DNA from: an uncultured Aquabacterium sp.
Lineage (GTDB): Bacteria; Pseudomonadota; Gammaproteobacteria; Burkholderiales; Burkholderiaceae_C
Assembly: GCF_913773725.1 (NCBI RefSeq)
Contig: NZ_CAJYGK010000156.1
Location: forward strand, 62,001-126,000
Direction of reading: 5' to 3'
DNA length: 64,000 nucleotides
Shown here piece after piece: positions 48,706 through 53,282 of the stretch. Position 1 is the first letter of the stretch. Every line of letters starts with the position of its first letter. The position numbers and the translations under genes were made by a program. Below the pieces are notes generated by a model that saw nothing but the letters and a program-made list of their open reading frames with translations, searched no databases and was not told the origin of the DNA.

Positions 48706-50067
48706 TCACCCCTCGACCGGCGGATGCTCCGTGCCTTCGGGCGGGGCACCGTCCGTGGCATCGTGCACCACACGGTTGCGTCCCTGGTCCTTGGCACGAT
48801 AGAGCGCCGCGTCGGCACGCGCCAGCCAACGCGTCAGGCTCAGCTCCCGCCAGTCGAACTGCGCCACACCGATGCTCACGCTCACGCGCAGGGGTTTGCC
48901 GTCCACCATGAGCCGAGCCTCGCTTACGGCACGGCGGATGCGCTCGGCCAACGCACCCGCCTGGGCGACATTTGCGTTGGGAAGCAGCACCACGAACTCC
49001 TCGCCGCCTATGCGGGCCAAGGTGTCCATGTTGCGGATCTGCTGCTGCACCACCTGGGCAAAGTTCACCAGCACGGCGTCGCCCGTGACATGCCCGTGCT
49101 GGTCGTTGATGCCCTTGAAGTGATCCAGATCCAGCATCAGCAGCGACAGGTCATTGCGGTAGCGCAGGGCGCGCTGCATCTCGACCTCGGCCACTTCAGT
49201 GAACGCAAGACGGGTGGCGGTGCCAGTGAGGGCATCGGTTCGGGCGGCCTGCTCGGCGACCTCCTTCTGATGACGCAGCTCGCGGGTGGCCTGCTCGATG
49301 CGGTACTGCAGCTCCTCCTGGGTGGTGGCGATCCGGCCGATCATCACGTTGATGCCCAGCGCCAGCGGACGCAACACCCCGCTGCGATGGATGTCCACCC
49401 GCTCATCGAGATCGCCTTGGCCCACGCGGGCAACCACATCGTTGATCAGCGTGATCTGGGCCGTCACGCGCGAAGCCAGCAAGGTCGCGAGCCCGCCGGC
49501 AAGCAACAGCCCCCCAGCCGCCGTCACGAGCGACCAGAGCAACAGCTCCTTCTGCTGCTGCGCCAGCGTCTCCATCGACATCTCGAGCACCGCATGCCCC
49601 ACCAGGCGAGAGCCCGGACCGTAAGCCAGGCCAGCCGAGGGCGTCGGCGTGTACAGATCGTCCACCGGGCCGGCCGTCGGGTAGATCGGCTGCACGATGC
49701 GCAACTCGTCGGCCACCTGCACGTCCAGCAGCGAGCCCTGAGGCGCAGGGCTTGCCGTCAACTGACCTGCCGATGCCAGCAGTTGCCCTTGCGCGTCATA
49801 GACCGCCACGCCGCGCAACTGCTTGTCGTTGCGCACGGCCGCCTCGGTCAGTCTGACCAGCCCCTCCCGGTCGCCGGCAAACACCATGAACTCCGCCGCG
49901 CTGCCCAACTGCCGCGCCGACGCGACACCGCGGTCCTGCAAGGCATCGGCCATGCGCTCGCCATAACGAAACGCAAATCCGGCTACCAGCATGGCGATCA
50001 CCAGCATGGCTGGCAACGCCGTGGCCACCCACAGACGCGCCCGGATGCCGCCCAACTTCAAGCTCAC
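48706..50067 (-). CDS. membrane HAMP-GGDEF diguanylate cyclase with periplasmic sensor region
   Basis: Two TMs flanking ~130 aa periplasmic region, HAMP (ARVGQGDLDERV), GGDEF: ARTDALTGTATRLAF...LLMLDLDHFKGINDQHGHVTGD...RNMDTLARIGGEEFVVLLPNA; I-site RxxD (RNMD) present; GTG start overlaps upstream stop. Confidence 0.9.
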   Translation of the reverse strand: MSLKLGGIRARLWVATALPAMLVIAMLVAGFAFRYGERMADALQDRGVASARQLGSAAEFMVFAGDREGLVRLTEAAVRNDKQLRGVAVYDAQGQLLASAGQLTASPAPQGSLLDVQVADELRIVQPIYPTAGPVDDLYTPTPSAGLAYGPGSRLVGHAVLEMSMETLAQQQKELLLWSLVTAAGGLLLAGGLATLLASRVTAQITLINDVVARVGQGDLDERVDIHRSGVLRPLALGINVMIGRIATTQEELQYRIEQATRELRHQKEVAEQAARTDALTGTATRLAFTEVAEVEMQRALRYRNDLSLLMLDLDHFKGINDQHGHVTGDAVLVNFAQVVQQQIRNMDTLARIGGEEFVVLLPNANVAQAGALAERIRRAVSEARLMVDGKPLRVSVSIGVAQFDWRELSLTRWLARADAALYRAKDQGRNRVVHDATDGAPPEGTEHPPVEG

Positions 50068-50957
50068 CGTGAGCCCTCCTGTCGCCGGATGAGTTCGGCC
50101 AGCGCAACGGGCTCCGGCACATCCAGCCCCAAGGATCGGCACACCTGCTCGTTGGTTGCGATCATGAAACTGTCCGCCAGACGGGAAGCAGGCCAGTTCT
50201 GGGCTTGGGGTGCGAGCTTCAACATGGATGCCACCTGCCGTCCCACCTGGGCCGGACTTGCATACAGACCAAGGGCCGCCCCGGACCGGACCAGAGCAGG
50301 TGAATAGGCGATCACCGGAATGCGCTGCCGGTAGGCAGCGATCAGGACCCGCTGCAGCGCACCGGCGTCGGCCACCGTGCTGTCGGGCAGCACCAGCAGC
50401 ACATCGCTGTCCGCCAGGGCCGTGCGCAAAGCGCCATAGAGTCCGTCGGGCTGGCTCACCGTCACAGGCGTCAGCTGGAGGCCGCGCTCCCTGGCTTCCT
50501 CGGCCAGCACCTGGCGCATGGCCTGACCATCGGGCCCCAGCAGCACACCCACTCGTGTGGACTTCGGGAACACCTTGCGGATCAATTCCATGTAGCGGTC
50601 GGGCGGCTGGTCCAGGTAAACCGCAGACACCCACGCCGGAGGCCGCCGCCAGATGGCCGCAAAGGCCTCCCGCGGAATCAGGGCAGCCAGCACCGGCACG
50701 CGGGCCCAGTCGGACTGGGCCTCTGCCCGGCTGTGCACCAGCCGCAGGGCGTTGCTGCCCAAGGTGATCACCGCGCCAGGCAGCCCTTCGGTGGGCAGCT
50801 GGCCCGGCTCCAGCACGATCAGGTCGCCGCGACGGCTGGCCTGGCGCCAGGCCACCTGCAACGCCGACAGTGCTTCCGCATGCGCCCCCCCCGCATCCGA
50901 CGGCAGCACCCAGACTGCCTCGCCTGCGCCACGCAATGGCGCTGCGACACCGGCCAA
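50064..50957 (-). CDS. ABC-type substrate-binding-like periplasmic protein (start uncertain, probably upstream near 50990)
   Basis: PBP-like pattern VPVLAALIPREAFAAI...VYLDQPPDRYMELIRKVFPKSTRVGVLLGPDG...DVLLVLPDSTVADAGALQRVLIAAYRQRIPVIAYSPALVRSGAALGLYASPAQVGRQVA; upstream in-frame codons encode LINRRQSLLLAAGAALAGVAAP (signal-peptide-like). Confidence 0.8.
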   Translation of the reverse strand: MAGVAAPLRGAGEAVWVLPSDAGGAHAEALSALQVAWRQASRRGDLIVLEPGQLPTEGLPGAVITLGSNALRLVHSRAEAQSDWARVPVLAALIPREAFAAIWRRPPAWVSAVYLDQPPDRYMELIRKVFPKSTRVGVLLGPDGQAMRQVLAEEARERGLQLTPVTVSQPDGLYGALRTALADSDVLLVLPDSTVADAGALQRVLIAAYRQRIPVIAYSPALVRSGAALGLYASPAQVGRQVASMLKLAPQAQNWPASRLADSFMIATNEQVCRSLGLDVPEPVALAELIRRQEGSR

Positions 50958-51003
50958 GGCGGCGCCCGCAGCAAGCAGAAGGGACTGTCGCCGGTTGATC
51001 AGA

Positions 51004-53013
51004 TCAGATCTCCAGCTTCAGGGTGACGAACACCCGACGGGCCAACGCGAACCCTCGGCTGATCAGAAAAGCATCCTGCTGCCCCTCCAGCGACTGCACG
51101 GTGAGCGCTGCCTCGGCCTTGCTGTCTCCCAGGCGGAACGCCTGCGCCAGGCGCACATCGGTGCGGTGAGAGAACGGAAGCCAATCGCGGTCATAGCGCC
51201 AGGTCATGCCGCCCAGCCGCTCGTGAATGACACTCAGTTCGGTCTGCGGAGACAACCGCTGGAACCAGGCGATCGTCGTGTGGTGACGAGGTGGACGGCG
51301 CTCGTCGCTGACCTGGTAGTTCACGTTGTCCCACTTGGTTTCCGTGAACGTCTGATTCAGCCACAGCTCGGTGTCAGCCGCCGGCTTCCAGCGGACCTGG
51401 TACTCCCCACCCGTGACCAGCAGGTCGGTGTAGTTCAGATAATCCCGCGCGCGCTTGCCGGTCTCGGGGTGGCGAGTGCTGGGCAACCGGGCGACGATGA
51501 ATTCATCGAGCTGCTCCCGGAAAAGTCGGACATCGAAGGTCAGCCGGTAGTCCTGCAGCCGACCGACGTAGCCGAGCTCGACGCTCCTGAGCTTTTCCGG
51601 CTGCACCCTCCCCGTCGCCGCGTATTCATGCTGGTACAGCGCGCCCGTGGTCGTGTAGTGCCGGACGTCGGCGACATACTCGGACAGGTTGGGCGCACGC
51701 ACCGATTCGGTGGCACCGAAACGCAGCGTGTGTCCGGGAGCCAGCAACCAGTTGGCCATCAGCCGCGGCGTGGCGTATGTGCCCGCAAGGCTGTGCTTGC
51801 CCACGAACAAGCCTGCGTTGAACAGCCACTGCGGCGTCATGCGCCACTCGACCGTGCCGAACGCACGGGACTCCTGGAACGACTGCCATGCTGCGTTGTG
51901 GTACAGCGCTTCGGACTTGGCGCGCTCGTCCTTGAAGCCGAGTCCGACCAGCGCCCGCACCCCGTTACCCAGACCAAAACGGCGCTGCGCCTCGATGTTG
52001 CTTCGCCGGCCCAGGGCACCGTAGTCCCATATGACGCTCTCGCCACTGACCGGTGGGTTGCTGTTGAGCTTGCGGTTGGGCGACAGTGCGTAGTCCTGCT
52101 TGCGGTCTTCCATGAAGCTTGCAGACAGCTTGAACTCGTCGGAGTCCGCCAGCTGGTGCCGCCAGTCGAGCTGCAGGTACACATCCCGACTGTAGATCGT
52201 GTGGTACGGATTGCCGTCGTCCGTGGGCGTGTACCCCTCTCCCGCTGCCAGATACGAGACACCGCTGGCAAGCATCACCTCGTCGACCGCGGAAGGCCGC
52301 AGATCGACCCGTCCGTTGAGCTGGCTGAGGCGCTTGTCGTCATAGGCGTTCCGATAGCCGCTGTCCCGCTGCTCACCAGCCGAAAGCCGAAAACTCGCGA
52401 CCTCGTTGCCACCGCCCACTCGCGCGCGCTTGTCAAAGATGCCGTCATTGCCGACCGTCAGGCCCAATTCGCCTCCGACGGTATCTGCGCTGTGCCGGGT
52501 GATGATGTTGATCACACCGAACATGGCATTGGCGCCGTAGGCGGCCGAGTTGGCTCCGCGCAGCACCTCGATGCGCTCGATGTCCTCGAGCATCACATCC
52601 ATCATGCCGCGGTGGGTGTCTCCGAGGTGGGCGGTGGAGTACACCGACCGACCGTCGATCAGCACCAGATTGCGGATGCCGTAGTCGTCCAGCGGCACGT
52701 GATACGCCGACAGAGGATTGGCACCGTTCCACCCGCTGGACAGGTAGCCCGGCACCAGCCTGAGCACCTCTGCGATGGTTCGCGCACCCGACAGCCGGAT
52801 CGTGTTCCGGTCGACCACCGTGATGGCGCCGGGCGCTTCATTCAACGGCTGATCCAGACGACTGGCCGTGAGCACCACGGGGATGTTCGCGTAATAGTCC
52901 TCTTCGGTGGGCACGCGCTCAAGCGCACGTGCTGAGCTCCCGGCCACACAGCCCAGCGCACACAACACGCCCCACACCTTGTAATTGGCTCGGACACCCA
53001 ACATCTGCGACAC
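51004..53013 (-). CDS. TonB-dependent receptor
   Basis: Plug: LDQPLNEAPGAITVVDRNTIRLSGARTIAEVLRLVPGYL...LVLIDGRSVYSTAHLGDTHRGMMDVMLEDIERIEVLRGANSAAYGANAMFGVINIIT; barrel APNLSEY etc. Alternative ATG start at 53004. Confidence 0.92.
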   Translation of the reverse strand: MSQMLGVRANYKVWGVLCALGCVAGSSARALERVPTEEDYYANIPVVLTASRLDQPLNEAPGAITVVDRNTIRLSGARTIAEVLRLVPGYLSSGWNGANPLSAYHVPLDDYGIRNLVLIDGRSVYSTAHLGDTHRGMMDVMLEDIERIEVLRGANSAAYGANAMFGVINIITRHSADTVGGELGLTVGNDGIFDKRARVGGGNEVASFRLSAGEQRDSGYRNAYDDKRLSQLNGRVDLRPSAVDEVMLASGVSYLAAGEGYTPTDDGNPYHTIYSRDVYLQLDWRHQLADSDEFKLSASFMEDRKQDYALSPNRKLNSNPPVSGESVIWDYGALGRRSNIEAQRRFGLGNGVRALVGLGFKDERAKSEALYHNAAWQSFQESRAFGTVEWRMTPQWLFNAGLFVGKHSLAGTYATPRLMANWLLAPGHTLRFGATESVRAPNLSEYVADVRHYTTTGALYQHEYAATGRVQPEKLRSVELGYVGRLQDYRLTFDVRLFREQLDEFIVARLPSTRHPETGKRARDYLNYTDLLVTGGEYQVRWKPAADTELWLNQTFTETKWDNVNYQVSDERRPPRHHTTIAWFQRLSPQTELSVIHERLGGMTWRYDRDWLPFSHRTDVRLAQAFRLGDSKAEAALTVQSLEGQQDAFLISRGFALARRVFVTLKLEI

Positions 53014-53205
53014 ACCTCGAGGTCAATGAACCTCCCCTGGTCGCAAATTATCCATGCGAGCCGGGGGGCCGGGGTGACAAACTGGGCGGGCCGGAGTGAC
53101 CCATGACTGTCCATCGACGACACGCGCCACGCTGTCGTCGCAGCACAACGTCTTTTCGGTTAACGGGAAGATGCGGTAAGCACCCGAACCATGCGTAAAC
53201 CAGGG

Positions 53206-53282
53206 TGGTAGGCCGTGTTGGACTTGAACCAACGACCAAAGGATTATGAGTCCTCTGCTCTAACCGACTGAGCTAACGGCCC
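53206..53282 (-). tRNA. tRNA with CAU anticodon (Met elongator or Ile2), CCA encoded
   Basis: Manually folded 77-nt cloverleaf: GGGCCGT TA GCTC AGTCGGTTA GAGC A GAGGA CTCATAA TCCTT TGGTC GTTGG TTCAAGT CCAAC ACGGCCT A CCA. Confidence 0.93.

Follow-up and report, generated by a model that had tools for sequence, protein, structure and literature searches.

In the 64,000-nucleotide stretch of DNA analysed here (the window), three adjacent genes encode a TonB-dependent receptor (TBDR), a binding protein of the PF04392 family (PBP) and a transmembrane sensor, and comparison with their homologues suggests that the three products probably form one trans-envelope pathway, in which the PBP would be a periplasmic adaptor and the sensor would carry an interchangeable output. 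Judged from the sequences, genomic support for a pathway shared by the three genes is strong; what we infer beyond this concerns the ligand, a direct contact between PBP and sensor, the sign of the regulation, and whether the TBDR transports or only senses. The host genome is 4.5 Mb in size and the nearest named relative at the locus is an uncultured Aquabacterium (PBP identity 90%). The locus is laid out as follows.

48706..50067, minus strand: diguanylate cyclase, TM1 – periplasmic sCache_4 – TM2 – HAMP – GGDEF (domain search)
50064..50067, minus strand: GTGA overlap of the PBP stop and the cyclase GTG start
50064..51002, minus strand: PBP, periplasmic PF04392 (ABC_sub_bind) protein (domain search and predicted fold)
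51004..53013, minus strand: TBDR, Plug and beta-barrel (domain search)
53014..53205, minus strand: intergenic region between the tRNA-Met and TBDR genes
53206-53282: tRNA-Met gene, 192 bp ahead of the TBDR gene

The original prediction described three packed minus-strand genes, and these lie where it placed them, the PBP gene starting 1 nt past the TBDR stop and overlapping the cyclase gene by GTGA. Its product assignments also held, with Plug and barrel in the TBDR, PF04392 in the PBP, and two TM segments, HAMP, GGEEF and an RxxD I-site in the cyclase. For the TBDR start, the ATG at 53004, which has a GAGG 10 nt ahead of it, is favoured over the GTG at 53013. No ATG, GTG or TTG lies ahead of the PBP signal peptide, which contains RR, and the protein appears to start at a CTG, the only workable codon, next to the TBDR TGA; GGAG-N7-CTG is found at this start (50999-51016, minus strand), and the layout is kept in the Aquabacterium-type orthologues L002, L003, L005-L008, L060-L062 and L064-L066 (L-numbers are labels of compared loci). 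A GATAAT box lies ~40 nt ahead of the TBDR start, within the intergenic region, and an (A/C/G)ATAAT box is present upstream of the set in six orthologues. Regulation by Fur and iron was rejected, as the best Fur-box match scored 10.2 of 19 positions against 9.7 in shuffled sequence (96 loci), with no enrichment. A plasmid search gave one weak Massilia match.

Conservation had been proposed as a check on the prediction, and the TBDR, PBP and sensor set does recur across many Proteobacteria. Loci were collected by PBP similarity, the profile having been seeded with members of triads; they comprise 80 named loci and 60 further genome regions, between which the same record may occur twice. For the 125 core-subfamily loci, a homologous sCache_4/HAMP sensor lies directly 3' of the PBP gene at 117 of the 120 loci that allowed a call and a TBDR gene lies ahead of it at 97 of 121, and TBDR, PBP and sensor occur in this order at 90/116 loci. 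Because the loci came from a triad-seeded profile and may contain duplicate records, the reverse test starting from sCache_4 matters: across 120 Burkholderiales genomes, 24 of the 26 sCache_4 matches sit 96-151 bp past such a PBP gene, the two exceptions being the lone sensors L289 and L308. The adjacent sensor is missing at three of the 120 loci, L077, L128 and L131, the last of which retains all three genes in permuted order, plus a divergent regulator, and relatives from Sulfuricella and Thiobacillus retain PBP and sensor without the TBDR. Matches to the PBP profile were found in 100/346 good-quality genomes sampled from the order (E <= 1e-12) and in 71/314 genomes sampled from the class (E <= 1e-15), both being upper bounds for the triad subfamily, as looser matches include transporter-type relatives.

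In many families the three genes stay adjacent although protein identity is down to about 30%, and because the set is conserved so widely, chance is excluded as the origin of the three-gene set on the strength of these comparisons. Distances between TBDR, PBP and sensor correlate for every pair (r 0.66-0.70), which indicates co-inheritance and nothing further, as a PBP–sensor contact is not singled out. At 19 loci the set is near rnhA, at several of them directly after rnhA-dnaQ-like genes (among L081-L136, L248 and L251), and this neighbourhood suggests an old, vertically inherited position.

The cyclase starts with GTG, has TM segments near residues 10-36 and 175-199, and carries RNMDTLARIGGEEF, an RxxD I-site plus GGEEF. 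R345, D348, G354, G355, E357 and F358 are invariant among 35 homologues, and the motifs are those of a predicted active, product-inhibited diguanylate cyclase; GGDEF structures were among the matches listed in a fold search. Its sCache_4 domain (PF09984) scored 35.1 bits against a cut-off of 22.1, while the HAMP domain, at 24.6 bits, fell marginally under the Pfam cut-off of 25 and was above it in all seven relatives scanned by Pfam. With sCache_4 flanked by the two TM segments and HAMP coming next, the cyclase has the BarA-type arrangement; sCache_4 is also present in E. coli BarA, and the N-terminal part of the cyclase matches BarA (residues 7-269, 1.1e-21). Unlike the BarA/LetS sensor kinases, the present protein has a GGDEF output and its sensor is paired with a PBP, a partner that BarA is not known to have.

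At other loci the C-terminal output of the third gene is GGDEF, GGDEF-EAL or a (hybrid) histidine kinase, the last frequently accompanied by receiver and Hpt domains, while the TBDR, the PBP and the sensor part stay homologous. Outputs were classed by sequence motifs, seven of them also being run through Pfam, and placing these labels on a PBP tree gave ~10 changes by parsimony, of which >=3 (at least three) are forced by well-supported branches; the tree was a quick one with long branches and the count of ~10 is approximate. The exchange is sharply drawn between L120 and L123, which share 76% identity in the PBP, 63% in the sensor, 66% in the HAMP region and 66% in the TBDR, and differ from the HAMP boundary onwards, one having a hybrid kinase and the other GGDEF. 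A NarL-type regulator, recognised by motif search, lies near 15/55 kinase loci compared to 0/32 cyclase loci (Fisher p = 0.0007, a value that overstates independence, as most of the 15 loci are from related species). Such natural swaps offer ready-made pairs for studying how one input drives different enzymes. The original proposal is partly supported: the signalling cassette is well upheld at the level of the genes, by conservation, PBP–sensor pairs without a TBDR, permuted retention and output swaps, and the particular chain, in which a ligand would cross the TBDR and bind the PBP and the PBP would modulate the cyclase, stays a proposal. c-di-GMP would be the endpoint here, where the third gene encodes GGDEF, and is one of several outputs, among which histidine kinases are commoner at the loci read.

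In the pathway that we favour, the TBDR would capture or admit a ligand at the outer membrane, and the PBP, as an adaptor and not a component of ABC transport, would bind this ligand or read the state of the TBDR and dock on the third protein at its sCache_4 domain in the periplasm. The signal, passing via TM2 and HAMP, would set the dimer state of GGDEF and with it c-di-GMP synthesis, which product inhibition at the I-site would limit. Periplasmic binding proteins control membrane sensors in LuxP/LuxQ, TorT/TorS and NspS/MbaA, and the present set is like these in having a binding protein beside a kinase or GGDEF/EAL sensor and no dedicated transporter; it is unlike them in its binding-protein family, its BarA-type sCache_4 sensor and its TBDR. 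More broadly, there is precedent for binding proteins activating chemoreceptors, kinases and cyclases/phosphodiesterases (PMC9602780). The triad may be described as binding-protein-controlled membrane signalling with a TBDR added, of which no earlier description was found in the literature searched, subscription journals being mostly outside its reach. A point against the pathway is that a PBP is not indispensable to sCache_4 sensors, as BarA and the lone sensors L289 and L308 show. If the pathway is right, it gives molecules at the outer membrane a way of controlling c-di-GMP or kinase signalling that needs no sigma-factor cascade, sCache_4 sensors gain a partner, and the absence of transporters for these PBPs is explained.

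TBDRs normally transport, which also speaks against the pathway. Identity as a FecA-type TBDR transducer was rejected: such receptors, with their sigma/anti-sigma partners, likewise feed a signal inward, but the N-terminal STN signalling domain was not found in the present TBDR, for which the domain search gave Plug and barrel only. Its N-terminal motif EEDYYANIPVVLTASRL is conserved within the family, and the form S-E-x-D-[FY]-x-x-x-[LM]-P-V-V-L-S/T, ahead of the plug, is common to most triad receptors. The best full-length named match of the TBDR and its relatives is the TOL_0244 family (NCBIfam NF053590), outside which the TBDR falls with 136 bits against a cut-off of 645. TOL_0244 showed a sevenfold rise on a long-chain alkane and is related to Alcanivorax OmpS, which is reported to detect alkanes (PMC6304351); this does not fix the ligand of the present TBDR.

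At 20/27 loci with TOL_0244-type receptors (L256-L282) there is a YfiR/HmsC-like neighbour, and those examined by Pfam have CHASE8-HAMP sensors, so that TBDR, YfiR-like protein and CHASE8 sensor make up, to judge by gene content, a parallel receptor-adaptor-sensor set in the nearest named TBDR family. In both sets the receptor has a periplasmic adaptor and a HAMP sensor for neighbours, and they differ in that the adaptor is YfiR-like and the sensor CHASE8 in the TOL_0244 family. YfiBNR too combines an outer-membrane component (YfiB), a periplasmic adaptor (YfiR) and a membrane cyclase (YfiN) in one operon; there, however, the outer-membrane part (YfiB) is an OmpA-like lipoprotein and the adaptor (YfiR) a PF13689 protein, in place of the TBDR, PF04392 PBP and sCache_4 cyclase found here. 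The present set does not have the PF13689 protein and CHASE8 cyclase of YfiBNR, and no YfiR-like ORF was found among the PBP loci.

The YfiR family is known for protein–protein control of cyclases, and an alternative modelled on it would have the PBP bind no diffusible ligand and act mainly as a protein–protein adaptor on the periplasmic face of the TBDR, contacting the acidic N-terminal motif and passing on occupancy or TonB engagement to the sensor, much as YfiR connects an outer-membrane partner with YfiN. The conservation of that motif across most triad receptors is consistent with such a relay, as is the fact that in the nearest named TBDR family this position is taken by a YfiR/HmsC-like protein. 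We nevertheless consider it unlikely, as the PBP retains the full two-lobe binding-protein fold and family-wide conserved motifs, and the PBP–sensor pairs without a TBDR in several lineages would need another input.

Rather improbable, too, is an uptake operon in which the TBDR and PBP import a nutrient with the help of a permease that is distant or promiscuous, and the cyclase detects this or another ligand directly through its own sCache_4 domain, a reading with which the ability of BarA-type sensors to function without a PBP agrees. It draws on the PF04392 relatives that are components of ABC transport, such as that of L234, which has an adjacent permease and ATPase and falls outside the triad PBP subfamily, and on solved members, which hold Phe, Trp and Tyr (PMC6816091). 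In the host genome, however, no PF04392 protein besides the PBP was found, and the cognate-type permease of L234 found no match there, although this was a single distant query and is weak evidence. As originally claimed, no ABC permease or ATPase was found near the PBP gene in the window, and the same searches, with the same weakness of the permease query, found no complete transporter for the PBP elsewhere in the genome. A role in ABC transport was rejected on these grounds, the permease and ATPase that would be encoded with the PBP of an ABC importer being found neither nearby nor in the genome. The genes instead follow the LuxP/LuxQ kind, with the PBP adjoining a membrane sensor and no cognate ABC permease or ATPase found, and the PBP is tied more closely to the sensor (117/120; 24/26 in reverse) than to the TBDR (97/121).

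The predicted structure of the PBP offers at most a lead to a ligand. The predicted model has a two-lobe binding-protein fold (pLDDT 91), closest in fold comparison to 3lkv, 3lft and 6hni, which carry bound Phe, Trp and Tyr (PMC6816091); in sequence as well as fold, the solved structures nearest to it are those of VC_1101, SP1069 (TrpX) and CD0873. With 45.7 bits against a cut-off of 390, the PBP lies outside the TrpX family NF041285, and it belongs to a subfamily with its own conserved motifs, LDQP, LPDP and YRxRVP, and no transporter, unlike CD0873 and its kind, which function in the transport of aromatic amino acids. Because this subfamily departs from its solved relatives at conserved motifs, an aromatic ligand would be only a lead.

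That the three genes are unrelated neighbours, for which nothing speaks beyond the overall tendency of genes to stay clustered through descent, is scarcely credible, as it is contradicted by adjacency at about 30% identity, by output exchange and by permuted order with retention.

Taking the trans-envelope pathway together with the TOL_0244-type loci, a broader but tentative reading, to which we give somewhat less than even weight, is that this clade of TBDRs may now be mainly sensory, working with either of two unrelated kinds of adaptor and sensor (PF04392 with sCache_4, or YfiR-like with CHASE8) and with exchangeable outputs. If true, this would be a general design for signalling from the outer membrane to the cytoplasm in Pseudomonadota, beside the FecA sigma-factor route.

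Some loci show further variations around the receptor gene. L062 and L065 have a second TBDR match upstream of the triad receptor. TBDR and PBP lie in a single ORF at L076 (L076:3-2948, 982 codons) and L082 (L082:2097-4859, 921 codons), which were not used as evidence of true fusions, possibly being frameshift or assembly artefacts. At L263, an above-cut-off TOL_0244-type receptor has a PF04392-type binding protein downstream, so that this locus may stand midway between one kind of set and the other.
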